This document shows positions 2 to 64,000 of a stretch of DNA of 64,000 nucleotides, piece by piece. Numbering within the stretch: the first letter of the stretch is position 1; each line of letters starts with the position of its first letter. A model generated the notes under the pieces. It had not been told where the DNA came from. It did not search any database and was given only the letters and a program-made list of their open reading frames with translations. Position numbers and translations under genes: made by a program. The stretch comes from Clostridium sp. 'deep sea'. GTDB taxonomy: Bacteria; Bacillota; UBA994; PWPR01. The stretch is from contig NZ_CP063353.1 in NCBI RefSeq assembly GCF_014931565.1, positions 2,852,001-2,916,000 on the forward strand, given 5' to 3'.

Positions 2-1207
2 AAGACTATTACCCAAGTAAAAAGAAAACCAACACCTCAGCCAGATGGGGTATCAAAAAGCTTTATTGTTAGATTCCCAATAGCTGAAAAACCAGATATC
101 TATATAAATTCTGTGCAAGTTGCAGAAGATGATATCGGTGTAAATGGCTTAGACAAAGACAGAAAATTTTACTTTAGCTATGGTAGCAACGTAATAGCAC
201 AAGATCAATCTGAACCTGTCCTAATATCTAGTGATGTAATAGAGGTTAGTTATAAAGGTCTTTATCCCATCATGGTAGTTGTAGATAGTCCGGAAGAAAT
301 TGAGAAGCGTAAGGCAAAAGAACCTGGTACTAGTGGAATCTATGAGAAGTTGGTAACAGAAACATCACTGGATACTGGCGATCAAGCTGTCGAGTTTGCA
401 GAAGGTCTAATATCTAAGTATGGGAATGTACCAGATAGAACTACTTTTAGAACTAATGTGAATGGGTTAAAAGCTGGACAATTACTAGCAATAAATAAGC
501 CTTTATACGGTTTAAATGAAAATTTTTTAATAGAGAGTGTAAATATACGTGCTAGTGGTTCAAGCAGTTTAGAGTACGATATTTCAGCCCTTGACGGCGC
601 TGCTTTAGGCGGATGGGAAGAGTTCTTTAAGGACTTACTTAAAGGACAAAGAGAATTTGTTATAGCTGAAAATGAGGTTATTATACTTCTTATATCTCTT
701 TCAGAGACATGGAAGTTTTCGCAAGAGTTAACGGTTGAGTTTATTAAGAACAAGACTCTAAATAATAACACGTTTACCTCAGTTAATGGTATGGATTTAT
801 ACACAAGTATAGGAAGTTCGGAAGAGGTGGGAGAAGTAATGGTTACAACAAACGCATTAAACTTATTAAGAGATGCATTGAATGGTGATAGCGTAAATGC
901 TGAAATTAATTATATAGCTATAGGTGATGATACTACTGCAGTTACAGGTAATGAAACTCAATTAGGTAATGAATTAAAGAGAGTTCCCATTACTTCACGC
1001 TCAAAATCTAATGATGGTGTGTTAGATACGGTTGCTGAATTACTTGATAGTGACGGAGCTTATAACATACGTGAAGTTGGTTTTATTGCTGGTGGTACAG
1101 ATACAGTTAATAGTGGAACATTAATATCTAGAGTTATCTACTCAAAAGATAAAACTACACTTGAATCACTAAGATTTAACGCAAAAAATACGATAAAGAG
1201 AGGGTGA
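2..1207 (+). CDS. Phage tail/baseplate hub-type protein, 5' end outside the window
   Basis: The frame is open from base 2, so the start codon lies left of the window; the internal GTG at 113 is not a start. About 401 residues are visible. The middle part (GLKAGQLLAINKPLYG followed by NFLIESVNI) resembles the C-terminal region of siphophage tail-hub proteins, where this segment precedes receptor-binding parts. The last 120 residues (from LNLLRDALNGD, with YIAIGDDTTAV and AYNIREVGF) resemble a phage tail-fibre or collar N-terminal module. Six bases separate it from the next tail gene, so they are probably co-transcribed. A structural tail role is fairly safe; the exact name is inferred. Confidence 0.65.
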   Translation, partial: KTITQVKRKPTPQPDGVSKSFIVRFPIAEKPDIYINSVQVAEDDIGVNGLDKDRKFYFSYGSNVIAQDQSEPVLISSDVIEVSYKGLYPIMVVVDSPEEIEKRKAKEPGTSGIYEKLVTETSLDTGDQAVEFAEGLISKYGNVPDRTTFRTNVNGLKAGQLLAINKPLYGLNENFLIESVNIRASGSSSLEYDISALDGAALGGWEEFFKDLLKGQREFVIAENEVIILLISLSETWKFSQELTVEFIKNKTLNNNTFTSVNGMDLYTSIGSSEEVGEVMVTTNALNLLRDALNGDSVNAEINYIAIGDDTTAVTGNETQLGNELKRVPITSRSKSNDGVLDTVAELLDSDGAYNIREVGFIAGGTDTVNSGTLISRVIYSKDKTTLESLRFNAKNTIKRG

Positions 1208-1213
1208 TTATAG

Positions 1214-1993
1214 TTGTATAACCCTACACAATGGCTCCCAAGGTTAAGGGAGTTTTTACTTAGGTACAAGCTAACATTAGTGCCAGGCACGACAGATACT
1301 TATGATTTCACTCTAATTGAGGGCGATGTGACCCAAGGGGGAACAGCAGCAAGCCCTGCAAATATGCAAAAGATTGAACAGGGTATAACAGATGCTCATG
1401 AGCATATAGCATTAACTAATAATCCTCATAATGTAACTGCTGAACAAATAGGATTAGACTCTATGGTATCAACTACAGGTGAAGTAGACAAGATTGTTAA
1501 AACTAACCCTGATGGTGATATTGCAGCGGGTCGATATTTAAAAGTTAGCAGTAATTATATAAGGTTTAATAATAATGTTTTAGAGGTAAGTTCTGATGGA
1601 ACTATTTGGAAAGGAGTAGGAGCATCTGTGTATAATAAATTTAATGTAATTAATTTTGAAGCAAGTTCATTACCTACAGCATTAACAACCATTGCAAGCT
1701 TTACAGGAAGCGGAATTATTAGAGAGATAGTGGCAACTAATACCTCTCAAATAAGTGGAGCATATAATATTTATTATTCAATCGATGGAGGGGTAGAGCA
1801 ACAGATAAGTAGACCAACTGCTACTAATTATGCGCTAGGAAAAGGATTAGCAGGTTCCACTTCATTTAATGGAGTTCATGGTTACGATTTGCCCGTTAAT
1901 TTAACTTTTAATTCTTCGTTCACGGTTAGAGCAAATGCTACAGGTTCAAATGTAAATTCGTTTAGTTCTAGTGTAAAATATAATTATGAGTAG
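1214..1993 (+). CDS. Phage tail fibre/appendage-like protein
   Basis: 259 residues, TTG start preceded by GAGAGGGTGA. The N-terminal third contains DFTLIEGDVTQGGTAASPANM and then a motif of the NPHNVTAEQIGLD type, which is typical of tail-fibre and tail-appendage proteins that link to the baseplate. The C-terminal half (from about residue 140) is rich in Ser, Thr, Asn and Gly with beta-strand character, as in receptor-binding tips. It sits between the hub-like gene and a small XkdW-like gene. The host receptor cannot be read from the sequence. Confidence 0.65.
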   Translation: MYNPTQWLPRLREFLLRYKLTLVPGTTDTYDFTLIEGDVTQGGTAASPANMQKIEQGITDAHEHIALTNNPHNVTAEQIGLDSMVSTTGEVDKIVKTNPDGDIAAGRYLKVSSNYIRFNNNVLEVSSDGTIWKGVGASVYNKFNVINFEASSLPTALTTIASFTGSGIIREIVATNTSQISGAYNIYYSIDGGVEQQISRPTATNYALGKGLAGSTSFNGVHGYDLPVNLTFNSSFTVRANATGSNVNSFSSSVKYNYE

Positions 1994-2001
1994 GTGAAAA
2001 T

Positions 2002-2409
2002 GTGTTAAAAATAATAGAAAATGAAATATTAATTGGTACAGATGACAATGCATACGTACATTATGGGTTTGTGACTAAAAAAGACGTATCGGTTGAAGGT
2101 AGCGTTATTAAAGTTAAATCACTAGAATTTAGCTTAGAGAATAAGCAGTATGAGGTTAACGTAAGTGATAATAGTGTAATTGGTTATGTATTAAATGATA
2201 CAAATAAAATTGGTGAATTTACAGAGGGTGTATTTACAGTAGATACAACTAATTTAACTGATATCAAATTAGAACTTGAAGGTGTGATTAAATATCTTAA
2301 GACTGAGAATGACACCTGGGTAGAATATACACCAGAACCACCTAAAAGTGAGATAGATAAACTTAAAAATCAAGTAGATCAATTGGCACTCGCAATTCTA
2401 ACAATCTAG
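2002..2409 (+). CDS. Small phage tail-region protein (XkdW-like position)
   Basis: 135 residues, GTG start eight bases after the previous stop, with a TAGGTGA ribosome site. The body is short beta-type sequence. The last 25 residues (SEIDKLKNQVDQLALAILT) form a heptad-like helix similar to the C-terminal coiled coil of XkdW-like proteins of Bacillus prophages. It lies directly before an XkdX-like gene, the usual XkdW-XkdX order. The family assignment rests on position and this C-terminal helix, so it is tentative. Confidence 0.5.
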   Translation: MLKIIENEILIGTDDNAYVHYGFVTKKDVSVEGSVIKVKSLEFSLENKQYEVNVSDNSVIGYVLNDTNKIGEFTEGVFTVDTTNLTDIKLELEGVIKYLKTENDTWVEYTPEPPKSEIDKLKNQVDQLALAILTI

Positions 2410-2421
2410 GGGGATAATATA

Positions 2422-2532
2422 ATGTACGAAGTATTACAACGACTATCAGCAAAAGGATTATTAACTGAAGCCATGAAACAAAAAGCCATATCACTTAACT
2501 GGATAACTGAACAAGAGGCTCAAACGCTCTAA
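2422..2532 (+). CDS. XkdX-family small phage protein
   Basis: 36 residues, ATG start with a GGGGGATAA ribosome site 13 bases upstream. The sequence KAISLNWITEQEAQTL matches the XkdX pattern, in which a short helix is followed by GWIT-E-EY near the C-terminus. XkdX proteins are found between tail and lysis genes in PBSX-type prophages; their molecular role is unknown. The stop codon overlaps a hairpin with a T-run (2522-2546), so the tail operon may end here before the lysis genes. Confidence 0.65.
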   Translation: MYEVLQRLSAKGLLTEAMKQKAISLNWITEQEAQTL

Positions 2533-2546
2533 ATGAGTGTTTTTTT
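2522..2546 (+). terminator. Hairpin terminator overlapping the xkdX-like stop
   Basis: AAACGCTC pairs with GAGTGTTT (one G-T pair) around a five-base loop and runs into seven or more T. It separates tail genes from the lysis cassette and may set their relative expression. Confidence 0.6.
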
Positions 2547-2572
2547 AATTTAAATAATATTGAGGTGTTAAG

Positions 2573-3022
2573 ATGAAAACTTTTTTAATGCAAGTATTTA
2601 AGAACGCTGATAGCCCAGCTATGTGGCTAGTTACAATTGCTGGAGGAGCATTCACAAGCTTAATTGGTGGGTATGACTCAATGGTAAAGATACTACTAAT
2701 ATTCATAGCTTTAGATTATATTAGCGGTATGATAGCTTCTATAATAGAGCATAAGCTTAGCAGTAAGGTTGGCTTTAAAGGTGTAGCTAAAAAAGTATTA
2801 ATATTGATGTTGGTAGTGATAGGGCACCAGGTTGATATACTTTTAGGATTTACAATTTTAAGGAGTGCAATTATTTCATTCTATATAGCTAATGAAATAA
2901 TATCAATCTTAGAGAACGTTAACCGCATGGGCTTAGAGACACCGAAAATCTTAAATATGATAATTGAGCTTTTACAAAAGAATGCAAACCCACCATTACC
3001 GGAGAATAAAGACAATGATTAA
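2573..3022 (+). CDS. Phage holin (holin_4/TcdE-like)
   Basis: 149 residues with four hydrophobic segments at about 15-33, 37-58, 70-90 and 92-112, and a charged tail. The motif NEIISILENVNRMGLETPKIL at 107-127 is the conserved end of the phage_holin_4 family (TcdE, BlhA relatives). Holins make membrane lesions that let the endolysin reach the wall. The start has an AGGTG ribosome site. The gene overlaps the amidase start by eight bases, which is the usual holin-endolysin coupling. Confidence 0.85.
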   Translation: MKTFLMQVFKNADSPAMWLVTIAGGAFTSLIGGYDSMVKILLIFIALDYISGMIASIIEHKLSSKVGFKGVAKKVLILMLVVIGHQVDILLGFTILRSAIISFYIANEIISILENVNRMGLETPKILNMIIELLQKNANPPLPENKDND

Positions 3023-3737
3023 AATAGCACTAGATCCAGGACACGGCCTTGATAGCAAGAATGGTGGCCAAGGAATGACAGAGTACGAGTTTAATTCTGC
3101 CGTTGCCGGTTATGCTCAAAAGTTACTTACCGAAGCTGGCTATGAGGTTGTACTAACCCAACCACTACATGCTAATACAGTAAGTCTATCTGAGCGTTTA
3201 AATATTGCTATTAAGAACGATGTTGACCTACTTATTAGTATTCATGCTGATTATAATAAAAGCCCTAATCCACGTGGTTTTTGGGGCTTTTATTGGCATG
3301 AAAGTGAGAAGGGTAAACAGTTTGCTGAGATATGGGAGAGACACGCAACAAAGCATTTTCCACATCCAGCCAGAGGTCTTAGAGAATGCAATCTTGGGAA
3401 GTGGCCAAACTTCTATATGACACGTGAAACTCATAGGGCTGGTATACCAGCTATTTTAATTGAACATGGATTTATGTCTAACCCGGAAGATTTGAAAATA
3501 TTAAAATCTGATAGCTTTAGGCAAATAGCAGCAATTACTATAGTAGATGCTGTTAATGAAATGTTTGGAGTACAAGTTGATTGGCGAGTGGAGATTGGTA
3601 AAAATGCATTAAATGAGTTAGTGGATAGAGGGTTAGTAGCAAATCCGGAGCAGATTGAAAACTTATATAAACCTCTACCTGCGTGGTTTCAACTTGAAAT
3701 GTTTAATAGAATAGTAAAACTTAGTGAGTCATCTTAA
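3015..3737 (+). CDS. N-acetylmuramoyl-L-alanine amidase, phage endolysin (Amidase_3)
   Basis: 240 residues. I place the start at 3015 (MIKIALDPGHG) rather than at an upstream ATG at 2964, because GGAG lies at the right distance and the protein then begins at the catalytic domain. Zinc-ligand positions of Amidase_3 are visible: His10 in DPGHG, Glu23 in the E-Y-E-F-N motif, His77 in SIHAD and the catalytic Glu150 in LIEHGF. The last 60 residues (IGKNALNELVDRGLVANPEQ) look like the short C-terminal module seen in clostridial phage amidases. It cleaves the lactyl-amide bond between MurNAc and L-Ala for lysis. Confidence 0.9.
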   Translation: MIKIALDPGHGLDSKNGGQGMTEYEFNSAVAGYAQKLLTEAGYEVVLTQPLHANTVSLSERLNIAIKNDVDLLISIHADYNKSPNPRGFWGFYWHESEKGKQFAEIWERHATKHFPHPARGLRECNLGKWPNFYMTRETHRAGIPAILIEHGFMSNPEDLKILKSDSFRQIAAITIVDAVNEMFGVQVDWRVEIGKNALNELVDRGLVANPEQIENLYKPLPAWFQLEMFNRIVKLSESS

Positions 3738-3754
3738 TTGATGGCTCTTTTTTT
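3726..3754 (+). terminator. Terminator after the lysis cassette
   Basis: GAGTCATC pairs with GATGGCTC (one G-T pair) over a six-base loop and continues into a run of T. The stem overlaps the end of the amidase gene. Confidence 0.75.
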
Positions 3755-3817
3755 ATTTTAAAGTATTTATATGCTTTGAAGTAATGGAGTATGAAAATAA
3801 TAATTAAGTAACTCTAA

Positions 3818-3848
3818 GAGATTCCACCTTAGCGGGTGGCTCTTTTTT
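3818..3848 (+). terminator. Second hairpin terminator downstream of the lysis genes
   Basis: CCACC pairs with GGTGG, flanked by GAG and CTC/TCT, then seven T. Two terminators in a row shield the following cargo genes from phage late transcription, which suggests that those genes have their own promoter. Confidence 0.6.
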
Positions 3849-4009
3849 TGGTTTGCTGAAGAGAGGATTTTATTTACTATTTTTATAAAATACTATAATA
3901 GGTTATCTTTTGTACATAAAAAGGTCTTGTAAAATATTCCAATATAATGTAATCTTAAATTGGTATATGTACATATTATAAATTGAAAGTTTACTTGTGA
4001 GGTGCTGGA

Positions 4010-4627
4010 ATGAATACATTAGTGCCAAAGATGGTATCTATTAGTCTAGAGTTATCAGATATAGATCTAAAAAGCATAGAGAAGTGTATAAGTAAGTTAA
4101 AAGAAGAGTATGGTTTTGAATCAGTTGAGCTAAACGAAGATAATATAGTGATGGAAAAAGGATCACCAGTAAGTAAGGTAGCTATTACAAAAGAGAAGAT
4201 GCAATTTTTAATCTTTTTATATTACATAAATGATGATAAAGATAATGATAAATTAATTTTAGTGTCAAAATTTTTAGAAACCATTAATTATAAAATAGAA
4301 TCAGCCCAATTTAGTAGTCTTAATAAAATAGAGTTAGTATATTTTGATGAGTTAGAAAATTTGACTGGATTTGATAACCACAAATACTTTGATGAAATTA
4401 ATAAATTAACTATAACTATTAATGGAAAGAATAATAATAACGATCTAAAAACAGAAATCGGTATAGGTGAAAGTTATGTATTCTATTCAATCAGCAATAA
4501 ATTAAAAAAAAGTTTACAGGATAGGAATGAATTGAATAGTTTACTTATTAGTAAAAAAGAACTACTTAATGAAGAATTCAATAAGTTGTGGAATGGGAAT
4601 ATCCAGAAATTTATATCTAGTTTTTAG
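4010..4627 (+). CDS. Prophage cargo protein of unknown function, first gene of a pair
   Basis: 205 residues, ATG with a GAGGTG ribosome site. I do not recognise the family. It is soluble, Lys/Glu/Asn-rich, with no signal peptide or membrane segment. The N-terminus alternates strands and helices (VSISLELSD, KCISKLKEEYGFESVEL). The C-terminus is a long helix (LKKSLQDRNELNSLLISK). It ends 17 bases before the next gene and almost certainly forms an operon with it. Location after the lysis cassette, behind two terminators and at the prophage edge, is typical for lysogenic-conversion or anti-phage genes. A sensor or antitoxin-like role for the next gene is only a guess. Confidence 0.6.
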   Translation: MNTLVPKMVSISLELSDIDLKSIEKCISKLKEEYGFESVELNEDNIVMEKGSPVSKVAITKEKMQFLIFLYYINDDKDNDKLILVSKFLETINYKIESAQFSSLNKIELVYFDELENLTGFDNHKYFDEINKLTITINGKNNNNDLKTEIGIGESYVFYSISNKLKKSLQDRNELNSLLISKKELLNEEFNKLWNGNIQKFISSF

Positions 4628-4644
4628 AAGGGAAAATTTTACTT

Positions 4645-5433
4645 ATGTCGAAACACGCTATGTTGTATAAAGTTTATAGTACTAAAGCTCTAGCAAATAA
4701 GAATGAAGCGGAAATAAAAGAATCATTAATTTATGATATTGAAAATTGTATGAATAATTCAAGACTACTATATCAGGCGATGTTTGACATGCCAGATATA
4801 GTAAAAAAGCAAATTGAAGAAGAATCATTAGGAGTTTTAGAAAAAGCTCAAGAATACCTAGAGCTAACTCGAAAAGAAGTAATCGTAAGTAAATCTGAAA
4901 GAAGTGTCTACAATAATCCTTTTGGGAGTATAATGAAGTATATACCTAAAAAGGCGGGATTTATTATGAGTGGTATTTTTTCTGATATTCCTTACATGTC
5001 AGTTGGAGAGATGGAAGACTCATTAAAATCTATTACTAGGTTAACTCCTTTAAAATGCTTTTTTGTAACAGTATTAACCACTTTAACTATGGCATTTAAT
5101 GGCTTCCCTATTGCTGTTAGATCTTTAATCGGTCTTTCAATAATTACCTTTATAACAAGAGTAATGAAAGCATTTCGTTTAGGGGAGGATAAAGCTGTAG
5201 CAACAGGGAATGCAGTAGTAAAACTCGTTTGGACATACTTGTTACTGTGTGCGTTTTTTATCTTATCTCCTGTTATTTCTGAAGATTATTTGCCAAAAGG
5301 TACTCTTTTTATTATTGGGAATTATGTGCTTATTTATAATGAGGTTCAATGTATAGTTGGGTGTGCCAATAAAATGGGACTGTATGTTCCTGAAGTATTA
5401 AAGAAAATTGGAAAAAAAGATGTTGAGTTATAG
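4645..5433 (+). CDS. Membrane protein with holin-like C-terminal domain and a cytosolic N-terminal region
   Basis: 262 residues. Residues 1-130 are hydrophilic and mostly helical. Residues about 139-155, 156-174, 193-212 and 219-238 are hydrophobic. The end (232-252, NEVQCIVGC then NKMGLYVPEVL) lines up with residues 107-127 of the prophage holin at 2573: N, E, I, N, M-G-L, P and L are shared, 10 identities of 21 without gaps apart from the frame of comparison. The four-segment layout also matches. So this looks like a holin_4-type membrane domain fused to a long soluble N-terminal domain. Its partner gene at 4010 lies just upstream. Lysis accessory, superinfection exclusion or an abortive-infection effector are all possible. 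Confidence 0.6.
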   Translation: MSKHAMLYKVYSTKALANKNEAEIKESLIYDIENCMNNSRLLYQAMFDMPDIVKKQIEEESLGVLEKAQEYLELTRKEVIVSKSERSVYNNPFGSIMKYIPKKAGFIMSGIFSDIPYMSVGEMEDSLKSITRLTPLKCFFVTVLTTLTMAFNGFPIAVRSLIGLSIITFITRVMKAFRLGEDKAVATGNAVVKLVWTYLLLCAFFILSPVISEDYLPKGTLFIIGNYVLIYNEVQCIVGCANKMGLYVPEVLKKIGKKDVEL

Positions 5434-46972: not shown

Positions 46973-48259
46973 ATGAGATTAATAACACATTTACTAAAAA
47001 ACTCTTTAAAACTAGACTTTAAAATGCTAATACCCTTTTTTGTGACCATAGTAATTATTGTATTAGTAACCTCTGCATCTACGGTTTCGGGGAATCTATT
47101 TGTGGAAGAGTCTCGTGATCCTGCTATTAAAGAGTTTGCAGGTGAAGTTTGTGTTTATAAAAGCTATAAAAAGGCCAAATTTGCGGTAGGTGCTACTGGC
47201 GTAGCCCAACAGTGGTATACTCAGCTGTTTGAGCCTTCAGATATTTTGGGAATAGCTGATTTGAATACAATCACATATGACTTAAACATCTGGGGAAAAC
47301 ATAGCTTTTTACACCAGATGGACACTAAAATACTAGGAAGAAACTATACTGAAAATACTCCACCATGGGAAATAAAAAAGGGAAAGCTACCGACTGTAAC
47401 TGATATTGCTGAATGGGAGAAACAGGGTAGACCAGTTACTGTATTAATATCAGATAAAATGCCTCTTGAAATCAGAGACTATATTAAAGTTGGTGATAAG
47501 TTTGAGCTATTTATACCAGCTGTAATAGAGTCTGGGGGGGTGCTTAATCTCAAGGGTGCCGCTAATACTGTAATGTTACCTAAAGATACCGTAGATATGG
47601 ACTACCTAAGTTATGATAAAGGACACTGGTTATCCTGTACAATAGCAGCTGTAGGTAGAGATGGATTAGGAACCGCAGGAGAAAGCATTGTAGTAATGCC
47701 GCTTAATATATTACAGCATCTAACAGGTGCTGGTTCAAAAATTAATAGAGCCGGAATCTCTCTAGCTAATACCTCAGAAGAAGAGCTGCTTAAGCTAGCT
47801 GATAGCGTTAGTCAAAAATATAATAGCTTTTATGGGCTAAGAACCACAGATATGTTTATTGGTACCTTTAAAAACCTAAATAGCTTGGAAAAACATGCTG
47901 ATTTATTAATCTACTCTATTTATTTTATCGGATCTTTAATGGTAACTTGTGTTTTAATATTATTGCTACGTAATAGAAGGGCTTCAGATGTACAGCTAAT
48001 TACTTTAGGAATAAATAGAAGTACCTTAGCTATGATAGCAATTATTGAGATTTTTATTGTATCTGTTTTATCAGTTCTTGCAGGGGCTTTAATACCAATG
48101 TTATTATCATTAATTCGGAGTGGCTCTATTGTGATGCAGTCTCAAAAAATGCTCAGATTCTTTTTAATAGTACCCTTTAACTTAATAATAACTGTAATAG
48201 TAACACAGCTTATGTTACCAAATAGTAAACAATGTTTGGAGGCTTTACGTTATGAATAA
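46973..48259 (+). CDS. ABC transporter permease, FtsX-like, large subunit
   Basis: 428 residues, GAGGAGAG ribosome site. One N-terminal helix (about 20-40), an extracytoplasmic domain of about 260 residues, then three helices (about 312-335, 350-378, 395-415): the MacB/FtsX layout. It overlaps the ATPase gene by eight bases. Such transporters usually move lipoproteins, peptides or act as mechanotransducers, not importers. Confidence 0.75.
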   Translation: MRLITHLLKNSLKLDFKMLIPFFVTIVIIVLVTSASTVSGNLFVEESRDPAIKEFAGEVCVYKSYKKAKFAVGATGVAQQWYTQLFEPSDILGIADLNTITYDLNIWGKHSFLHQMDTKILGRNYTENTPPWEIKKGKLPTVTDIAEWEKQGRPVTVLISDKMPLEIRDYIKVGDKFELFIPAVIESGGVLNLKGAANTVMLPKDTVDMDYLSYDKGHWLSCTIAAVGRDGLGTAGESIVVMPLNILQHLTGAGSKINRAGISLANTSEEELLKLADSVSQKYNSFYGLRTTDMFIGTFKNLNSLEKHADLLIYSIYFIGSLMVTCVLILLLRNRRASDVQLITLGINRSTLAMIAIIEIFIVSVLSVLAGALIPMLLSLIRSGSIVMQSQKMLRFFLIVPFNLIITVIVTQLMLPNSKQCLEALRYE

Positions 48260-48938
48260 ATCGCTAGTGATGAAAAATGTATATAAAGCATATGGAGAAG
48301 ATGAAAGCAGAATAGAGATATTAAAAAACGTAGATTTAAGTTTAGAGCCAGGCGAATTTGTAATGATGTTAGGTCCCTCTGGTACAGGAAAATCAACAAT
48401 ACTTCATCTAATAGCAGGGCTTACCCCAGTCGATAAGGGTAGTATTGAAGTCTGTGGTACCGATGTTGAAAAGTGTAACAAAAATCAAATACTAAAGCTG
48501 AGAAGAGAAAAAATAGGTTTTGTGTTTCAAGATTTTAGGTTACTACAAGGCTTAACAGCTCTCGAAAATGTAATGGTGCCTTTATATTCAATTGGTAAAA
48601 ATAAAACTGAGGCCCACAACACAGCTACTAAGTTACTAACCTTATTGGGATTAGAATCAAGATTAAATCATTATCCACGTAAAATGTCTGGTGGTGAGCA
48701 ACAGCGAGTCGGTATAGCGAGGGCTTTAGCAAATGATCCCAAAGTTATACTAGCAGATGAGCCTACAGGCAACCTCGATCAAAAACTAGCTCATAGTGTA
48801 GTGCAAACTCTTGCTAGTTTACCGAAAAAAATAGGCACCTCAATTTTAATGGTTACCCACAACCCCGAACTAACACAATACGCAACAAGGGTTGTAAAAT
48901 TAAATGATGGTCATTTAGAGGTGATCAGCAATGGCTAG
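48252..48938 (+). CDS. ABC transporter ATP-binding protein (LolD/MacB type)
   Basis: 228 residues. Walker [10 protein letters not shown] (about 40), Q-loop FQDFRLL, signature [16 protein letters not shown] and Walker [13 protein letters not shown] are intact. It overlaps both permease genes by eight bases, so the three form one transporter. Confidence 0.92.
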
Positions 48939-49488
48939 TTTAGCACTAAAAATGGCAATGCAGGAATGGAAAAAAATAATACTAATAGCCATAGTATTAG
49001 CTTTTGCTGGGTCAATGTTTATATACTACAATGCTGTAATGAGCGAAATGCGCTATTTTTCAGTTAATAACTTAAACCCCAATGATGAAGATAAATTTGA
49101 GGGAATGAAAGTACCTAAAACTCGTTCAGAAATACTGGTATCGGCAATGACTATGCTTATTGTCTTGGCGGCTACCCTTTTTCAATTAAATATGTTAGTA
49201 GTAGATATGATAAATAAAAAGAAAGAATACTTTGCCCTTAAAGTAATTGGTGTATCTGAAGAGAAAGTAGAACTCTTCCCCCTAATGTATTCTTTATTAG
49301 CTAGTATGTTATCTACTATAATACTATTTGCTTTTTGGTTAATTGTATTTCCAAACATAAAAAATATACTAAGTATTCATCATGTAAGTTTTGGCTTGAT
49401 CTTATTGGTTGCGGTAGTGTTTTTTGCTTTAAGTGTTATCATTGGTGTTAAAGCTCGCTATATTGCTGAATATATGGATACAAAATAA
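48931..49488 (+). CDS. ABC transporter permease, short FtsX-like subunit
   Basis: 185 residues with four membrane helices (about 15-33, 70-92, 108-130, 150-172) but only a short loop of about 35 residues between helix 1 and 2. This is the FtsX membrane core without a large external domain. It pairs with the long permease at 46973 to give an asymmetric dimer. It ends at a strong terminator. Confidence 0.7.
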   Translation: MASLALKMAMQEWKKIILIAIVLAFAGSMFIYYNAVMSEMRYFSVNNLNPNDEDKFEGMKVPKTRSEILVSAMTMLIVLAATLFQLNMLVVDMINKKKEYFALKVIGVSEEKVELFPLMYSLLASMLSTIILFAFWLIVFPNIKNILSIHHVSFGLILLVAVVFFALSVIIGVKARYIAEYMDTK

Positions 49489-49490
49489 TA

Positions 49491-49523
49491 ATAAAGGTTT
49501 TGCTGTATGCAAAACCTTTATTT
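49491..49523 (+). terminator. Terminator of the ABC operon
   Basis: ATAAAGGTTTTGC pairs perfectly with GCAAAACCTTTAT around five bases, right after the stop codon. Confidence 0.85.
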
Positions 49524-50027: not shown

Positions 50028-51833
50028 ATGAAATCATTTATAATTACCGACATTGGCAGTACAACTACTAAAGCGTTATGGATAGCTAATAAAAATGGCA
50101 GATATAGATTGTTAGGAAGGGCAGAATCACCAACAACAGTAGAATCCCCTTACGAAGACGTAACTATTGGGGTAAGTAGAGCATTAAAAAAACTAGAGAA
50201 ACAGTGTAATCAGCAATTTGAAGATAGCAACAACATAGTAGTGCCAACTGTTGAATACTATTCGTCTAGTAGCGCTGGAGGAGGATTACAAGTATTAGTC
50301 ATTGGTCTATTTAGTAAAGTAACTGCTATAAGTGCTCAAAAAGCAGCCTTAGGAGCAGGGGCAATACTGCTTGATGTTATCTCTAATGATGATAAAAGAA
50401 CATTGTTTGAAAGAATAGAAATAATACGTCAAATTCGTCCAGACATGATTTTATTAACTGGTGGATTAGACGGAGGCGATACCGATTTTGTAGTTGAGTT
50501 TTCAGATGTTATAAACTCTGCAAACCCACAACCACGCTTTGGGGAGACCTTAAAATTACCTGTAATATTTGCAGGTAATAAAAACGCTATCCCCCTAATT
50601 AAAGATACCTTAGGAGATAACTTCGATTTACATATAACAGATAATATCCGTCCGGAAATGGATTTAGAGAACCTCCAGCCGGCCCGTAGAGAACTGCATG
50701 AGTTGTTCTTAAGCCATGTTATGCAACAGGCACCAGGCTACCCTAAAGTAACTAAAGCTGTTAAGGCCGATATAATGCCTACTCCTTTGGCTTTTGGCTA
50801 CATAATATCCGAGCTCAGTAGACAAAAAAAAGTAAATATATTATCAATGGATATAGGAGGTGCAACAACAGATATATTCTCTGTGATTAACAATAACTTT
50901 AATCGTACAGTTAGTGCTAACTATGGTATGTCATATAGTGTGGCTAATGTTATGCAGCAATGTGGTATTCAAAACATAAAAAGATGGTTACCTTTTGAAA
51001 TTGATAATGTAGTGTTAGAGGATATAATTGGCCAAAAAATGCTATATCCAACTAGCCTGCCTAACACCGTATTGCATTTAATGGTTGAGCAAGCAGTTGC
51101 CCGAGAAGCAATAAAATTATCAGTAAAACATCACAGTGATTTAATTAGAGAACTACCTCAAAAAAGAGATAGAGGATTAAAAAAACTACTGAATCAATCT
51201 AGAAAAAAAGAAAAATGGCATGAAACTAAAAGCCTAATAGATATGAGCGATATAGGCTTAATTATTGGAAGTGGAGGAGTATTGTCGCATGCTCCTAAGC
51301 GTAATCAGGCAGCTCTAATGCTCATAGACTCTTGCAAACCCCAAGGGGTAACCCGTTTAGCTGTTGACAGTGTGTTTATGATGCCTCACTTAGGTGTTTT
51401 AGCTCAAAACCACCCCGAGATAGCCCTACAAGTTTTAAATGATGATTGCTTTATACCATTAGGTACGGTAATCAGTGGCACAGGTAACCTTAAAAAAGGA
51501 GAAAAAGCAGCGGTAGTTTCAGGCGAAATAAGTGGCAAACCTCTTAAACAGATTGTAAATGCAGGAGAGCTAAAGTGTATAAAATTGACTAATGCTTGTA
51601 ATCTAGAGTTAAAAATTGAGTGTTATAAAGGTGTGACTATCGGGAAAGACAAAAAGCAAGTTCTTAATGTATTAGGTGATGTTGTGGGTCTTATTATAGA
51701 TATGAGAGATTGCTGTCAACAAAATCTAACTGCAAATACTAATGAAGAACATGTGCTAGCGATTAATGCATTTACCCAGGCTGAAATAAATGAAGCGAGG
51801 AGGTTAGCTAATGAAATTAGTAGAGATTACTAG
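50028..51833 (+). CDS. MutL/GlmL-family ASKHA ATPase-like protein, no mutase nearby
   Basis: 601 residues, GGAAGGAGAG ribosome site. The nucleotide fold opens with DIGSTTTKALWI and has LTGGLDGGDTDFVVEF and LSMDIGGATTDIFSV, which are the marks of the GlmL/MutL family. In known operons this protein stands next to B12-dependent glutamate or ornithine/lysine aminomutases and may repair or load cofactor. No mutase subunit or B12-binding domain lies in this window. It overlaps the next gene by 23 bases and probably forms an operon with 51811, 52908 and 53938. The family call is good; its role here is open. Confidence 0.8.
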   Translation: MKSFIITDIGSTTTKALWIANKNGRYRLLGRAESPTTVESPYEDVTIGVSRALKKLEKQCNQQFEDSNNIVVPTVEYYSSSSAGGGLQVLVIGLFSKVTAISAQKAALGAGAILLDVISNDDKRTLFERIEIIRQIRPDMILLTGGLDGGDTDFVVEFSDVINSANPQPRFGETLKLPVIFAGNKNAIPLIKDTLGDNFDLHITDNIRPEMDLENLQPARRELHELFLSHVMQQAPGYPKVTKAVKADIMPTPLAFGYIISELSRQKKVNILSMDIGGATTDIFSVINNNFNRTVSANYGMSYSVANVMQQCGIQNIKRWLPFEIDNVVLEDIIGQKMLYPTSLPNTVLHLMVEQAVAREAIKLSVKHHSDLIRELPQKRDRGLKKLLNQSRKKEKWHETKSLIDMSDIGLIIGSGGVLSHAPKRNQAALMLIDSCKPQGVTRLAVDSVFMMPHLGVLAQNHPEIALQVLNDDCFIPLGTVISGTGNLKKGEKAAVVSGEISGKPLKQIVNAGELKCIKLTNACNLELKIECYKGVTIGKDKKQVLNVLGDVVGLIIDMRDCCQQNLTANTNEEHVLAINAFTQAEINEARRLANEISRDY

Positions 51834-52893
51834 AAAACGCAAACTACCTTATGCTGGTTCAGTAATGGTTGAACTGGGGCAACAAGTTAGCAATACAGAT
51901 TTAGTTGCTCAAATGAACTATTTTCCAGGACTTGTTAAAAAATTAAATGTAGCTAAATCCCTATCAATAAATCCTCAAAAGCTTATCGATGTTATATGCG
52001 TAGAACAAGGAAAATTAGTTAAAGAAGGGGAGTTAATTGCATTTAACTCTAGATGGCACAGAGCACAGTTTATGAAAGCCCCCCAGAGTGGAATCATTGG
52101 TATGATATCTAGACACTTAGGTATTGTGTACTTAAGAAAGTTAATCAAGTACAACACCAATACTTATGAAGTTTTTAATATTGAGCAACTACTCGATTCA
52201 AACTCTCGTTTTGCCAAAAAGAGTATCCTAGTAAATGTTGGTGACTCAGTATCGCCTGGTCAGATTATTGCTAACTTAATGTACTCAAAAGGCAGATTTA
52301 AAATAAAATATGTAACAACAAATCTCTTTGGTACTGTGGTTGAAATAAAGAATAATATAATAACCATCAAAAACTCTCAAAAAAGCCCAAAAAAATATGC
52401 TTATTTATCTGGAACAGTAACTGAGATAGAGCCTAACTGGTCTGTTACAATTAAATCGGAGGCCTATAAACTAACTGGGGTATATGGTCTAGGTGGAGAA
52501 ATAAGCGGTCAATTACGAATAATAAAAAGCCCAAAATTAACAGTAGAACAGCTAACTGAACAAGATAAAAGCAAAATAATACTTACACAAGGGTTTATAA
52601 CTAAAGCTGTATTATTAAAATCTAAAGAGATAGGTGTAGCTGCTATTATTGCATCAAGCTGTAATTTGGCTACCCTTAGAGAATATGCAGGTAAAAACTT
52701 TATACCTGGTATAACTGGTAGTGAAGATATCACTACAGGGGTTGTGTTGTTAAAAGGGTTTAACATAAGTGAGCTAAATAAAGAAGTGTTCAGTGAATTG
52801 CAAAACTACAATAACTGTGAATGTTCTATTAATGGGACAACTCATATACGAGCAGGTGCTATACGACCGGAGATACTAATTTTTCCAAAATAA
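51811..52893 (+). CDS. Unknown protein with two lipoyl/biotinyl-like beta segments
   Basis: 360 residues, GAGGAGG ribosome site inside the end of the MutL-like gene. Two regions look like a lipoyl-type hammerhead: about 60-115 (VCVEQGKLVKEGELIAF then APQSGIIGMIS) and 140-190 (VNVGDSVSPGQIIANL then NLFGTVVEIKNNI). No lysine at the usual lipoate or biotin position can be named. Residues about 240-325 form a separate domain (IGVAAIIASS, GVVLLKGF). The C-terminus is IRAGAIRPEILIF. I do not recognise the family. Its coupling to the MutL-like gene suggests a shared complex. Confidence 0.55.
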   Translation: MKLVEITRKRKLPYAGSVMVELGQQVSNTDLVAQMNYFPGLVKKLNVAKSLSINPQKLIDVICVEQGKLVKEGELIAFNSRWHRAQFMKAPQSGIIGMISRHLGIVYLRKLIKYNTNTYEVFNIEQLLDSNSRFAKKSILVNVGDSVSPGQIIANLMYSKGRFKIKYVTTNLFGTVVEIKNNIITIKNSQKSPKKYAYLSGTVTEIEPNWSVTIKSEAYKLTGVYGLGGEISGQLRIIKSPKLTVEQLTEQDKSKIILTQGFITKAVLLKSKEIGVAAIIASSCNLATLREYAGKNFIPGITGSEDITTGVVLLKGFNISELNKEVFSELQNYNNCECSINGTTHIRAGAIRPEILIFPK

Positions 52894-52907
52894 CAGGAGT
52901 TGATGCT

Positions 52908-53906
52908 ATGAAACTAAATTTATTTTGTATGAAAGGTAATGAATTCTATAACACAAATAAAAAGCTGCTACTATGCCCTAACTTTAAACGCTTACTATCT
53001 CAAATTAATGATTTTTCCGAGTTAAATAATAAACAAGTAGAATTATTTACAAAGCATGGATGGCTAACAAAAGAGAATGACATTGTGAAGTCTACATTTC
53101 CAATACTAGATACAAACAATTGCATTGCTATAGAAAAACGAGTTGAAGACTGGTTACCAACTACAATTGAGCTACTTAGTAAAAGCCTTAGCGAACTTAA
53201 AGATCTCTTAAAAAACCAATATAGTAGTTATATTCATAACATTGTTTTGCATATAATTTTAGATTCTTTGTGGCAACAACTTTGGTTGAAAATCATTAAA
53301 CCAGTTAAAAAGGGATGCATTGTACTAGTTAAAGAAGAACACGAGCTTAATGCCCTATTCACTAATATCGCAGTACTTAATAATAATTTGATTATGTTAT
53401 ATGGAGAGACGTCTTTACAACACAATAACAAAATGATGTGTAATAAATTAAACAACAAGTATATGATAAGGCTACTCTGTAGTGTAGATAATTCATGGTT
53501 AGTTTATCCATATGACCAACAAGAGTTCATATTAATGGAAATGAATCTTGTAAAGAGAATGAAAATAAAGGGTAGTATTGAGGACTATTTTAAATTAACA
53601 ATACCAATAGTAAACAAAAAAATGATTACAGAAATGTTATCAGTACTAAAGCAAGTATCAGTAATTGGTTATAACCAGTTAAAAATCCTAATAAAAATAC
53701 TTAATAAAAATAACAGAACCAGCTATATAGGACTTGATTGTGTATATCAGGAGGATTACTTACAGGCTTCATTCTTTGTAATAAAACATGCTATAGTTAA
53801 AGCCCTTATTTGCAATGATTGTATACCTGATTTTGTAGCAGTTCCATATTTAAATGAGCTAACTACTCGTTTACTTTATAAAAATGTAAGTTTAACAGAT
53901 ATGTAA
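52908..53906 (+). CDS. Unknown protein, first of a diverged paralogous pair
   Basis: 332 residues, GGAGTTG ribosome site. I do not recognise the family. The motif order is the same as in the next protein: a short winged-helix-like part ending in STFPIL, a long helix, NIVLHIILDSLWQQLW, then GCIVLVKEEHE. A helical C-terminal part ends in IPDFVAVPYLN. Lys/Asn-rich. It lies 15 bases after the lipoyl-like gene and 32 before its paralogue. Confidence 0.55.
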   Translation: MKLNLFCMKGNEFYNTNKKLLLCPNFKRLLSQINDFSELNNKQVELFTKHGWLTKENDIVKSTFPILDTNNCIAIEKRVEDWLPTTIELLSKSLSELKDLLKNQYSSYIHNIVLHIILDSLWQQLWLKIIKPVKKGCIVLVKEEHELNALFTNIAVLNNNLIMLYGETSLQHNNKMMCNKLNNKYMIRLLCSVDNSWLVYPYDQQEFILMEMNLVKRMKIKGSIEDYFKLTIPIVNKKMITEMLSVLKQVSVIGYNQLKILIKILNKNNRTSYIGLDCVYQEDYLQASFFVIKHAIVKALICNDCIPDFVAVPYLNELTTRLLYKNVSLTDM

Positions 53907-53937
53907 AACTTAGTAATATAAAGAAAGGCGATAAAGA

Positions 53938-54882
53938 ATGTATAGATTCATATATCAAATATATAATAAAAAAAGCTTTTTAAGCAACTATCACAACCTT
54001 CTATCTTTAAATATTAATCAGCAAGATTTTGAGGCTGTAGCAGGTTTACCTAATACAGCAACAGCTCTTCGCATTGAAATCATTAGTGCATTACAAAAAA
54101 GTGATCTATTGATAGAATGTGAAACAGGTTTTGTACCAACTTTTCCAATCCTAACTCCATTATTGGGTAACAAAATAGCAAGTTATATAAAAAAATACTG
54201 TCAAGAAGCAGCAAGTAAAATAACGGCTCAGCTAGGTGACAAAATTGCTAAGTCTTATCGTGCTACTTTACTAATTAATATTACACTTGGTTACTTATGG
54301 CAGGCTATTCTCAATAGAAAATGCAAGACAGGATCCACTGGAAGTATAGTGTTATTAAGAGAGTGTGAAAATAACCCTACATTATATATAGACGGAATTG
54401 GTCCTGGATTAGGTTCATATATAACATGGGCCAAAACCCCTTTGCAAAAAAATAATAAACAACTTAACATTGCCTTTGGTGATAAACATGTAAAGAATAC
54501 CTTTCATTCAATTAAACAAGATGGAAGTATGATACCTTATGGCAATGCAAGAGAAAAGCTTACCGCACTTAAAATAGCACAATTAACGAGTGACCCAAAC
54601 AACCCTGTGAGTAGGTTACTATTAGCTGAACCAGGTATTACCCCTCATATAATAAAGCAGCTAAAACATGATCTAGTAGACTTAAGTATTATAGGTGTAG
54701 AATCAATTGAGCAAATAGCAAAAGTTAGCCAGCAAGCATATACTAACCTTATGAAGAATGGTATAGTAAGTAAAATCTACTTTACTCAAGCTATGTATTA
54801 TGTATATAGTAATGAACTGGTAAAACAGCTTATTAACATTGGGTACATGCCAAAACTCAGGGCTATACCAACTCTAGTTTAA
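53938..54882 (+). CDS. Unknown protein, second of a diverged paralogous pair
   Basis: 314 residues, AAAGGCG ribosome site. It shares with the preceding protein VPTFPILTPLL (versus STFPIL), INITLGYLWQAIL (versus HIILDSLWQQLW), GSIVLLRECE (versus GCIVLVKEEHE) and a matching C-terminus (GYMPKLRAIPTLV versus CIPDFVAVPYLN). The two were therefore probably made by tandem duplication. A Gly/Pro-rich loop (IDGIGPGLGSY) at about 153 could bind a ligand. Function unknown. Last gene of the operon, 70 bases before the rRNA promoter. Confidence 0.55.
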   Translation: MYRFIYQIYNKKSFLSNYHNLLSLNINQQDFEAVAGLPNTATALRIEIISALQKSDLLIECETGFVPTFPILTPLLGNKIASYIKKYCQEAASKITAQLGDKIAKSYRATLLINITLGYLWQAILNRKCKTGSTGSIVLLRECENNPTLYIDGIGPGLGSYITWAKTPLQKNNKQLNIAFGDKHVKNTFHSIKQDGSMIPYGNAREKLTALKIAQLTSDPNNPVSRLLLAEPGITPHIIKQLKHDLVDLSIIGVESIEQIAKVSQQAYTNLMKNGIVSKIYFTQAMYYVYSNELVKQLINIGYMPKLRAIPTLV

Positions 54883-55087: not shown

Positions 55088-59620
<4,533 letters not shown>

Positions 59621-59650
59621 AATTTCTATGTAGTTTTCAGTGTTCTATGA

Positions 59651-59768
59651 AAACCGCTGAAAATGCACGCTCTCTGCGTTGTACGATTGTTTATTCATTC
59701 AGCATACAACTTGTATAGCTTTATTTCATAAACAATCTAGCGCCTTGACAGCATACATTTTCAACAAT
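59651..59768 (+). repeat. MITE-like element, left of the 5S gene
   Basis: A 118-base segment with ends AAACCGCTGAAAATGC and CATTTTCAACAAT, which are themselves imperfect inverted repeats. It matches the segment 59973-60092 in inverted orientation: 28 of 31 bases at the outer end and 27 of 31 at the inner end, with a more diverged middle. Confidence 0.75.
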
Positions 59769-59793
59769 TTTCAACTTAGAGCATTAACAAGTT

Positions 59794-59910
59794 TATGGCG
59801 GCGATGGCAAAGGGGTCACACCTGTTCCCTTACCGAACACAGAAGTTAAGCCCTTTAGCGCCGATGGTACTTGGCTGGTGACGGCCTGGGAGAGTAGGAC
59901 GCTGCCATAT
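59794..59910 (+). rRNA. 5S ribosomal RNA
   Basis: About 117 bases with the usual CACACCTGTTCCCTTACCGA region and the GGGAGAGTAGGACGCTGCC end. It follows the 23S gene by about 170 bases, including the left repeat. Confidence 0.93.
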
Positions 59911-59918
59911 TAAATTTA

Positions 59919-59952
59919 GAAAAAGACTGTACGATATGTGCAGTCTTTTTTC
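59919..59952 (+). terminator. Terminator of rRNA operon 1
   Basis: AAAAAGACTGTAC pairs with GTGCAGTCTTTTT over a five-base loop and T-run. Confidence 0.85.
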
Positions 59953-59972
59953 TAGTTGGCTCTGGTGTGGGA

Positions 59973-60092
59973 ATTGCTGAAAATGTTTTCTGTCAAGGCG
60001 CTTAAAATTTAACAGCTGTGCGTAATACATAGCGTATGCGTGCAGTTGATAAATTTTTTTGCAACGCGGAGAGAGAGCATTTTCAGCGGTTT
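59973..60092 (-). repeat. MITE-like element, right of the 5S gene, inverted copy
   Basis: Inverted relative to 59651-59768 with nearly the same length (120 versus 118 bases). It joins directly to a 5S fragment. The ends GCTGAAAATG and CATTTTCAGC are terminal inverted repeats. Confidence 0.75.
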
Positions 60093-60165
60093 CCGTTAAG
60101 TACTTTAGCGCCGATGGTCACTTGGCTGGTGACGGCCTGGGAGAGTAGGACGCTGCCATATTAAA
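60093..60165 (+). pseudogene. Truncated 5S rRNA copy
   Basis: Contains the 3' two-thirds of a 5S gene, from GTTAAGTACTTTAGCGCCG to the GACGCTGCC end, with a few differences. The 5' part is replaced by the right repeat. It retains a terminator. Confidence 0.85.
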
Positions 60166-60171
60166 TTTCTT

Positions 60172-60206
60172 AAAAGAGTATTTGCATATGCTAATACTCT
60201 TTTTTC
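60172..60206 (+). terminator. Terminator after the truncated 5S copy
   Basis: AAAAGAGTATT pairs with AATACTCTTTTTT around about ten bases. Confidence 0.8.
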
Positions 60207-60207
60207 G

Positions 60208-60842
60208 TTATTTCCACGAATGATTTTTGGAACAAAATATCTTACCTTTACCCATCTATAATTAACGCTAGCTCTGCGTCATACGAGCTAATTTTCTAAA
60301 AAATACTGCAACGTATAATCTTTGTAGAGAATTCTCTCTATTCCTGAATCTAGCTTGTAAGTCATCGCATAATGATAGCTTTAAGGCTGTTGAGAGTATA
60401 GAAATACCATACTAACTGTACCTATGTAGGGAATGTGCCTCCGTGCCGTTCCATGTTTGGCATTACCTAAACGTACCAAGCAGGAGCTAATCAAAAGAAC
60501 ATCCCTATACCTCTCTGGTGGTACATTTTATGAGGACTTACCTTAGATAGTAGCTTCTTCACAGCTTTAAGAAAACACTTCTCCTCGTGATATAATTTTT
60601 TTAATCAATAGTCAGCCATAAGTCATGTTGTTTAGTTAACACAAAAGGGGGGCTCCCTCCAGATTATAATAATATAATGCATATAGAACTTCTAGGTAGT
60701 TAGCTTGTGTAGTTATGTTGTCTGGTATAACGGCAACTATGCTAATATTAGCTATGTCCTAAATACATTACATTCGTAGAAAAACCAGCCTAGTTCAGAT
60801 ATTACGAAAACATATCAGTTACCGAATCTTATGTTATGCATT
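60208..60842. other. Intergenic stretch between rRNA operon 1 and the toxin-antitoxin pair
   Basis: About 630 bases with no gene I can support. The minus-strand reading near 60420-60500 has short coding-like pieces broken by stops, possibly a decayed gene, but I cannot name it. A short palindrome AGAGAATTCTCT is at about 60331. Confidence 0.4.
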
Positions 60843-60876
60843 TTGCTGTAAAATTTAACGTTTTATTTTACAGCAA
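60843..60876. promoter_or_regulatory. Operator/promoter of the toxin-antitoxin operon
   Basis: A 12-base perfect inverted repeat (TTGCTGTAAAAT and its complement) with ten bases between. A TATAAT lies at 60884-60889, just downstream, so binding would block transcription. Autoregulation by antitoxin-toxin complex is normal for this family. Confidence 0.6.
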
Positions 60877-60913
60877 GTTTGTATATAATATAAATAAAGA
60901 GGAGGGATTTAAC

Positions 60914-61162
60914 ATGCCTAATATAATGCCTGTATCTGATCTTCGTAATTATACCGATGTATTAAAAAATGTAGATGTAGATTCACCTGTTTTTTTAACT
61001 AAAAATGGCAGAGGTCGTTACGTAATTGTTGATATAAAAGAATATGAAAAACAAGAGGCAAAGCTTAAGCTCTTGGCTATGCTTCAAGAGAGCGAAGAAT
61101 CAGTAAAGAATGGTGATGAGTGGTTAACATTAAATCAAGTAAAAAAAGACTTAGAGGTCTAA
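60914..61162 (+). CDS. Antitoxin, Phd/YefM family
   Basis: 82 residues from ATG 60914 with GAGGAGGGA upstream; an ATG at 60836 would place the operator inside the gene and is less likely. The Phd/YefM N-terminus is MPVSDLRNYTDVLKNV with SPVFLTKNGRGRYVIVDIKEYE. The C-terminus is helical and should wrap the toxin. It directly precedes the toxin gene. Confidence 0.88.
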   Translation: MPNIMPVSDLRNYTDVLKNVDVDSPVFLTKNGRGRYVIVDIKEYEKQEAKLKLLAMLQESEESVKNGDEWLTLNQVKKDLEV

Positions 61163-61163
61163 A

Positions 61164-61493
61164 ATGCTTAAATTGCGCTTTAGCCCACTAGCTAGTAAAG
61201 ATTTAAACGAGATTAATCAATATATAATAGAAGATACCTGTGATGAGCGTGTTGCTAACAAAACTCTAAATAACATCTTAAGCAAGGCCTTATTATTGGA
61301 GAACTTGCCGTTAATGGGTAATAGCTTAAAAGCCAAAATAGATATGGCGACAGATTATCGTTATTTAGTGGCAGGGTCATATTTACTGTTTTATAAAGTA
61401 GAAAAAGAGTTTATTTCTATTTATAGAGTAATTCATAGTAGAAGGGATTTTGTAAAAGTATTATTTGAGAATGATAGACAAGGCAGTTTGTAG
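61164..61493 (+). CDS. Toxin, RelE/ParE family
   Basis: 109 residues, starting two bases after the antitoxin stop. The fold reads FSPLASKDLNEINQYI, a beta sheet YRYLVAGSYLLFYKV, and IYRVIHSRRDF. The Arg/Tyr positions suit ParE/RelE proteins, which cut mRNA at the ribosome or poison gyrase; sequence alone does not decide which. Confidence 0.85.
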   Translation: MLKLRFSPLASKDLNEINQYIIEDTCDERVANKTLNNILSKALLLENLPLMGNSLKAKIDMATDYRYLVAGSYLLFYKVEKEFISIYRVIHSRRDFVKVLFENDRQGSL

Positions 61494-61858
61494 ATTACTG
61501 TCTTATCTCTGTTATCTCTACTTAGTACTATTAAGCTACTGCTAATGTGTTTTTAAACATAACCTTTTGTAGTTGGTAATGAAATCTCTATACTCTATCT
61601 GTTATATTATAAGAGACTAGCTTATATAGTAGGTAATTAGCTATAGTTTATATAATAGTGAACTGCTTATAATAGCCCATACCCCTTAAAGATAATAATT
61701 AAAAATTATAAATAAATAATTTCTTAATCTTAAACAAATACTAGTATAGAATAGCCAAATATTATTGCCTATAGATTAAGCTAAACCAGTGTGATATAAA
61801 CATAATTCAGGTTAACTTAAGGTTATATGAATTAATTTATAAAAAACATTAATTAATC
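61494..61858. other. Intergenic stretch before rRNA operon 2
   Basis: About 365 bases, A+T-rich, no gene seen. A short stem at the toxin stop (AAGGCAGT, ACTGTCTT) may act as a weak terminator. Nothing else stands out. Confidence 0.5.
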
Positions 61859-61859
61859 C

Positions 61860-61888
61860 TTGACAATAGTGGTGGCGGGTGATATTAT
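61860..61888 (+). promoter_or_regulatory. rRNA operon 2 promoter
   Basis: Identical to the operon 1 promoter (TTGACA, 17 bases, TATTAT). The region of identity begins at about 61859. Confidence 0.85.
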
Positions 61889-61995
61889 ATACAAGTCGCC
61901 GAAAGCGGGGACGAAAAAAGAGAGTAGAACATTGAGAATTAAATAGTAGTAGAATAGGGCTCTTAAAAAAGTAACAAAGTCAGTAACGTTAAAAG

Positions 61996-63520
<1,525 letters not shown>

Positions 63521-63603
63521 AGACTAAGAAAACTATTCTACACTATTTAATTCTGAGGGTTGTACCCTCTTTATTTTACAGAACATTGAAAACTGCATAG
63601 AGA

Positions 63604-64000
63604 GGTCAAGTAAAAAAGAGCATATGGCGGATGCCTAGGCGCCAAGAGTCGAAGAAGGACGTAGCCAGCAACGATAAGCTGTGGGGAGCTGCAAGCAAGC
63701 GTTAAATCCACAGATTTCCGAATGGGGAAACCCAGTGGGTAGAAGGCCCACTACCGCTAAGTGAACAAAATAGCTTAGTAGGAGGCAACCAGGAGAACTG
63801 AACCATCTAAGTATCCTGAGGAAGAGAAAGAAACATCGATTCCCTGAGTAGCGGCGAGCGGAAGGGGAAGAGCCCAAACCAAGTACTTGTACTTGGGGTT
63901 GAGGACTCCAATAATCGAGTGGAATCTAATTGAATGGGAAGGGAAGCCCAGCCGTAGAGCGTGATAGCCGCGTAAATGAAAGAGGAAGCAAGAGTGGAGT
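63604..64000 (+). rRNA. 23S ribosomal RNA, operon 2, 5' part
   Basis: The first 397 bases match operon 1 with no difference I could see. The gene continues beyond the window. Confidence 0.93.

Follow-up and report, generated by a model that had tools for sequence, protein, structure and literature searches.

The window analysed here is a stretch of 64,000 nucleotides (nt) from the genome of Clostridium sp. 'deep sea' (contig NZ_CP063353.1, positions 2,852,001 to 2,916,000 of the forward strand). Between positions 50028 and 54882 its plus strand carries an operon of four intact and closely packed open reading frames (ORFs), at the place where an earlier note, drawn from the letters of the DNA, had put a four-gene set. 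The first gene encodes a long protein of the MutL family of ASKHA ATPases, the second a barrel-sandwich protein called Lip here, and the third and fourth the proteins C and D. We report the family, motifs, pairing, co-occurrence, gene order and predicted fold observed for these proteins and their relatives, and consider what kind of system the operon may belong to.

50028..51833, plus strand: gene 1, mutL; long MutL-family ASKHA ATPase of 601 amino acids (aa), with PF13941 over residues 5-474 and a C-terminal extension of ~130 aa past the domain
51811..52893, plus strand: gene 2, lip; barrel-sandwich protein "Lip", 360 aa, with two barrel-sandwich segments and then a swivelling beta/beta/alpha domain
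51811..51833, plus strand: overlap of mutL and lip, 23 bp, with a GAGGAGG ribosome site upstream
52908..53906, plus strand: gene C; soluble protein of 332 aa, of no known family
53938..54882, plus strand: gene D; soluble protein of 314 aa, of no known family

The overlap and its ribosome site agree with the coupling of the first two genes proposed in the earlier note, and mutL and lip are likely to be translationally coupled. Genes C and D start 14 and 31 nt behind the preceding gene, each with a ribosome site of its own. The two are paralogues, as had been supposed (BLASTP E 2e-10, 23% identity), and neither found a relative in Pfam, NCBIfam or the PDB.

Long MutLs, Lip and the B12-dependent mutases

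The window MutL matches PF13941 with 372.3 bits (gathering cut-off 27; E 4.3e-111), and a weaker match to Hydantoinase_A (E 7.6e-6) also lies above its gathering score; a profile search of the PDB gave nothing useful. Targeted searches of the genome, a single 3.83-Mb contig, brought the number of long MutL paralogues to five (open frames of ~608-634 aa), and in all five the phosphate-1 (GSTTTKA), phosphate-2 (DIGGATTD) and adenosine (IGSGGVLSH) motifs of the ASKHA fold are invariant.

Its best NCBIfam relative is GlmL, and that name, together with the shared Pfam family, would make the protein an accessory (reactivase) displaced from its B12-dependent mutase. A sister copy in locus L009 lies behind histidine-degradation genes, whose product is glutamate, and this too speaks for such a role. 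However, the window MutL scores too low for all the curated models of GlmL, Or-4 and glmL_fam (222.6 against cut-offs of 475, 215.8 against 600 and 149.3 against 204.05). None of the five MutLs of this genome has a mutase beside it (0/5), and no B12 mutase gene was seen in the ORF lists of the window, as the earlier note had said. A search of the genome for B12-binding domains returned a methylmalonyl-CoA mutase (MCM) with its own MeaB, MetH, a radical SAM protein and lysine 5,6-aminomutase (KamE), all far from every MutL; these enzymes were named by eye from sequence, and three weak B12-binding matches were left out. Glutamate mutase E was not seen in the genome, the lone PF06368 match being weak and falling on the methylmalonyl-CoA mutase; ornithine mutase was not searched for with a model of its own.

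The positive control consisted of 20 MutLs of ordinary size (447-511 aa), drawn from further genomes of the same phylum and picked irrespective of their neighbours. All 20 adjoin glutamate mutase (GlmS/GlmE-like) or ornithine mutase (OraS/OraE-like) genes, recognised from sequence, whereas only one of 109 loci with long (~600-aa) MutLs has a mutase-type match nearby (L071, of the small-subunit type, within 6 kb; Fisher p about 1e-22). When 29 long and 20 short MutLs were placed in one maximum-likelihood tree, the two kinds were parted by a single branch, with a Shimodaira-Hasegawa-like approximate likelihood ratio test (SH-aLRT) value of 100. Because long MutLs lack the mutase neighbours that short ones have, and the two form separate clades, we reject the mutase-accessory explanation, which we find barely credible: the MutL of the window is not a mutase accessory, and the usual label is wrong for these genes. 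The earlier note had allowed that a mutase might prove to be a constant neighbour in relatives, and these counts go the other way; they support its alternative, a separate use of the ASKHA family. Automatic annotation may thus name such ATPases after B12 mutases and mask a conserved multi-gene membrane system. A simple rule suggests itself, namely that a ~600-aa MutL adjoining a barrel-sandwich protein is not GlmL.

The two lipoyl-like segments that the earlier note saw in the second gene are borne out in the N-terminal half of Lip, by a match to RnfC_N of 27.7 bits, just over the cut-off of 25.6, and by a confident AlphaFold model (predicted local distance difference test, pLDDT, 93.4); Biotin_lipoyl stays below threshold. 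In Foldseek the best E-values for Lip belong to RNA polymerase beta' chains, with poor overall superposition, a result that fits barrel-sandwich segments. The C-terminal domain best matches 2hi6 (probability 1.00, template-modelling (TM) score 0.60 on the target, 3.8 A), a protein of the swivelling beta/beta/alpha fold; protease-associated domains come lower, at a TM of about 0.4. In most Lips a KOW domain (NusG-like) forms the C-terminal end; the window Lip and its closest kin lack it. Across 37 sequences no column of the hairpin of barrel 1 holds a conserved acceptor lysine, and Lip is therefore unlikely to carry lipoyl or biotin. This, and the swivelling domain at its C terminus, leave the cofactor-handling role floated in the earlier note unsupported.

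Two further explanations turn on these features. If Lip were an electron-transfer subunit like RnfC, PrdC or NqrA, the operon would be a redox module, and the RnfC_N match and weak matches to PrdC and NqrA are in keeping with this. Only the barrel-sandwich segment matches, though (far below the full-length cut-offs, with 18.9 against 490 for PrdC, and 21.6 against 246 for RnfC in the paralogue of L007), the remainder of Lip is the swivelling domain, and no cysteine is found among the invariant residues of Lip; we regard a redox module as very improbable. An ATP-dependent enzyme akin to the hydantoinase/oxoprolinase relatives, with the swivelling domain of Lip as a mobile carrier, would account for that domain and for the Hydantoinase_A match. 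It is improbable in our judgement, for a HyuB-like or other catalytic partner is absent from every neighbourhood read, the acceptor lysine is not conserved, and the constant partners are membrane proteins.

The computations show that MutL and Lip evolve together. Their trees, built for 95 pairs, give a Mantel r of 0.84 against a shuffled maximum of 0.31 and share 54 of 92 bipartitions, 43 of them well supported in both, an agreement to which the common descent of the host genomes adds. Four of the five MutLs in this genome have a Lip directly behind them. The fifth (L008:8700-10496; G000 C1 about 3.75 Mb) has no Lip and stands beside AraC-type regulators and two ABC exporters. Searching genome contigs with the window Lip as a single query found nothing; an alignment used as the query found at least 579 relatives.

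Membrane proteins that accompany MutL-Lip elsewhere

Outside the window, long MutL-Lip pairs have constant partners: a small protein S (~105-147 aa, no transmembrane segment) and the membrane proteins M1 (DUF6754, PF20539), M2, M3 and M4. The core gene order is (T)-S-MutL-Lip-M1(DUF6754)-M2-M3-M4, where T is a protein with two transmembrane segments that precedes S in some loci. The order S-mutL-lip-M1-M2-M3-M4 was read in L153, L137, L174, L179, L182 and L188, with archaeal variants in L146 and L132, and in the Bacillota loci L077, L079, L085 and L086 the M1-M4 cassette directly precedes mutL-lip. Such one-operon arrangements occur in Planctomycetes, Latescibacteria, Zixibacteria, Brocadia, Bathyarchaeota and Bacillota. 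Lip relatives spread further: in a scan of GTDB genomes the matches listed include records labelled Bathyarchaeota, WOR-3, Poribacteria, Latescibacteria, Brocadia, Planctomycetes, Gemmatimonadetes, Fimbriimonadales, Zixibacteria and others. In 79 loci examined, S was present in 22, at least one M gene in 32, and mutL and lip with at least three M genes in 16. Two MutL-Lip pairs occur in a metagenome-assembled genome labelled Symbiobacterium thermophilum (L122).

Within the phylum, Lip and DUF6754 co-occur almost without exception. A strong Lip was found in 30 of 398 genomes and DUF6754 in 31, with both in 29 and neither in 366 (Fisher p about 1e-40, kinship ignored). The genome of the window is itself a DUF6754-bearing genome with a long MutL + Lip pair, and it holds seven tandem M1-M2-M3-M4 cassettes, which lie outside the window at 2.074-2.097 Mb (G000 C1:2074364-2096929; L100, L101). 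Hydropathy and the flanking lysines and arginines, read by a simple rule, put the M1 domain in the cytosol and the M3 domain outside. In some M1s of other phyla an additional N-terminal region resembles, by eye, a fibronectin type III domain. Searching the PDB by profile with M1 and M3 gave nothing useful.

Genes C and D and the surroundings of the operon

In the window operon itself S and M1-M4 are not there; C and D follow lip instead. C has no transmembrane segment. The AlphaFold model of D (pLDDT 86, from 10 sequences) found no significant Foldseek match in the PDB; a predicted helix-helix-hairpin near its N terminus at most recalls a winged helix. When C and D were compared by profile with S, T, M1-M4, Lip and MutL, homology was rejected in every case. 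Genes of the C/D kind turned up in this family and in one other family of the class.

The sister genome G332 keeps the gene order and the reading frames, and identity to its same-place genes is 73% for MutL, 56% for Lip, 32% for D and 21% for C. Since the synonymous sites of MutL and Lip are saturated between the two genomes, MutL, at 73% identity, is under purifying selection. C and D are fast-changing, as specificity or regulatory subunits might be.

Other settings of these genes were also read. A MutL-Lip-C/D sister operon lies directly behind histidine-degradation genes (hutH, hutU, ftcD, hutI, fchA) in two genomes (L009:6854-17865 and L049:4329-13586). In L211:10956-19387 (G000 C1 about 545-553 kb) a Lip and a C/D-like pair without MutL stand ahead of radical SAM genes, in the order peptide-maturase-like radical SAM, ABC-exporter-like protein and second such radical SAM, possibly a modified-peptide cluster. 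Near an orphan C/D homologue in G332 (L213:905-2227, C58) there may be a CRISPR-like repeat array, to judge from peptides that recur in spurious ORFs.

These soluble, fast-evolving partners invite a regulatory explanation, in which MutL-Lip senses a ligand or the state of ATP and, with winged-helix-like C and D, steers nearby transcription, so that this copy would need no membrane complex. The N-terminal hairpin of D and the position of a paralogous pair (L007) after an ArsR-type helix-turn-helix protein are in its favour. D, however, lacks any significant Foldseek or profile match to DNA-binding proteins, and MutL-Lip is accompanied elsewhere by membrane proteins and not by regulators; we think such a switch rather unlikely.

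Upstream of the operon the window contains the following features.

46973..49488, plus strand: three ATP-binding cassette (ABC) transporter genes, FtsX/MacB-like; permease of 428 aa, ATPase of 228 aa, permease of 185 aa; a neighbour, not shown to be part of the system
49490..49522, plus strand: terminator-like hairpin directly after the ABC genes; a weak signal, with 5 such hairpins against 3.6 in shuffled sequence

The earlier note was wrong to say that no transporter is present, as these three genes lie just upstream. The hairpin suggests that the mutL operon may be transcribed apart from them. A gap of 540 bp separates the ABC genes and hairpin from mutL; a remnant of a major facilitator superfamily (MFS) gene was sought in it and none was found. 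In G332 the ABC genes stay near the operon, with an MFS gene in between.

It is conceivable that MutL-Lip modules drive or regulate adjacent exporters of the FtsX-type ABC or MFS kind. FtsX/MacB-like ABC genes lie ahead of mutL in the window, in G332 and in L060, L066, L139 and L144, and in L050 and L075 this place is taken by related MFS genes. On the other side, G374 has the same operon without adjacent ABC genes, and in the window the hairpin and 540 bp intervene. The ABC transporter also failed as an orthologous constant neighbour across families, for the permeases of the other loci have no detectable homology to those of the window and the ATPases alone align; exporter adjacency is therefore a hint and not a rule. 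ABC transporters are, moreover, common, and the adjacency was counted without a background rate. We judge an exporter accessory distinctly unlikely.

Downstream, an rRNA operon begins at 55090, 208 bp beyond gene D; it is the first of two tandem rRNA operons in 55090-64000 (16S at 55090 and 61998), and a YefM/ParE-type toxin-antitoxin pair lies between the two (60836-61493). The left end of the window (113-5433) has phage-type tail, holin and amidase-like genes and is, by eye only, probably the edge of a prophage. A PADLOC run on nine proteins gave no match to an anti-phage defence system, and a defence role is unsupported.

A proposed ATPase-adaptor and its comparison with known systems

We suggest, giving it about an even chance, that the four genes arose by duplication from an ancient, widespread and apparently undescribed membrane system that uses ATP, and that they are a paralogue of its cytosolic half; C and D are the two lineage-specific soluble partners of this copy. 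Somewhat more tentatively, and at a little under even chances, we suggest that the long MutL-Lip is the general ATPase-adaptor of an undescribed membrane machine (S-MutL-Lip-DUF6754-M2-M3-M4) of Bacteria and Archaea, that some lineages have multiplied the ATPase modules together with tandem cassettes that exchange partners, and that the operon of the window is such a module, specialised by C and D subunits of its own. The seven M1-M4 cassettes and five MutLs of one genome lead us to speculate that several membrane modules may be served by a single kind of ATPase-adaptor.

To judge from its intact ASKHA motifs, MutL would bind and hydrolyse ATP, and Lip, with its barrel-sandwich and swivelling domains, could act as the adaptor through which a conformational change driven by ATP reaches a membrane partner. 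M1-M4 would be this partner in the core system, with the M1 domain probably cytosolic and the M3 domain probably outside, and the action on the membrane complex may be one of assembly, gating or reloading. The window copy may serve an M1-M4 cassette in trans or a neighbouring exporter, and C and D could be the specificity or regulatory subunits of this specialised copy. The membrane complex itself could serve in transport, help to assemble a surface structure or take part in membrane quality control.

Several observations weigh against this proposal. Homology alone ties the window copy to the membrane system, because the operon lies ~0.8 Mb from the M1-M4 cassettes and C and D are unrelated to S, T and M1-M4. 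Many Lip loci of other phyla have no M gene within 10 kb, and the co-occurrence of Lip and DUF6754 is broken in three genomes (1 + 2). Lastly, the rate at which long MutL loci pair with Lip (100 of 109) is biased because the loci were gathered with Lip as bait; the agreement of the trees is independent of the bait.

No description of a MutL-Lip-DUF6754 system was found in the literature searched, from which subscription journals were mostly absent, and we know of no described system of such composition. What is new is the system as a whole; its components have known folds or a DUF number, and the window operon is a paralogous variant. Some ten or more phyla carry the system, archaea and anammox bacteria among them, and its function is directly testable, since some genomes have a single compact copy of the core genes; the core operons of L077 and L153 are examples of compact ones.

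The individual proteins resemble known ones in part. With GlmL / Or-4 (PF13941; NF040745, NF040744, TIGR01319) the window MutL shares the Pfam ASKHA core and intact nucleotide motifs; it differs in its length of ~600 and not 460 aa, its C-terminal extension, its Lip partner, its lack of a mutase neighbour, its separate clade and the cut-offs that it misses. The barrel-sandwich segments of Lip have the fold of biotin/lipoyl carrier domains without their conserved acceptor lysine. Lip also shares the barrel-sandwich domain with RnfC, NqrA and PrdC, of which RnfC and NqrA are peripheral subunits of membrane complexes, a likeness to the role proposed for Lip; in place of their remaining parts, Lip has a swivelling domain and often KOW. 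DUF6754 (PF20539), known as a family name only, marks the membrane system that accompanies long MutL-Lip, whereas no gene of this family lies in the operon of the window.

As a whole, the proposed machine may work like group II energy-coupling factor (ECF) transporters, in which a shared ATPase serves exchangeable membrane modules; the analogy would fit the many-cassette genome, although the ATPase here is an ASKHA and not an ABC protein and sharing is suggested by gene counts only. ASKHA proteins of the PilM and FtsA type, which work at membranes, offer a second possible analogy, that of an actin-like ATPase of a different ASKHA family recruited to a membrane complex.

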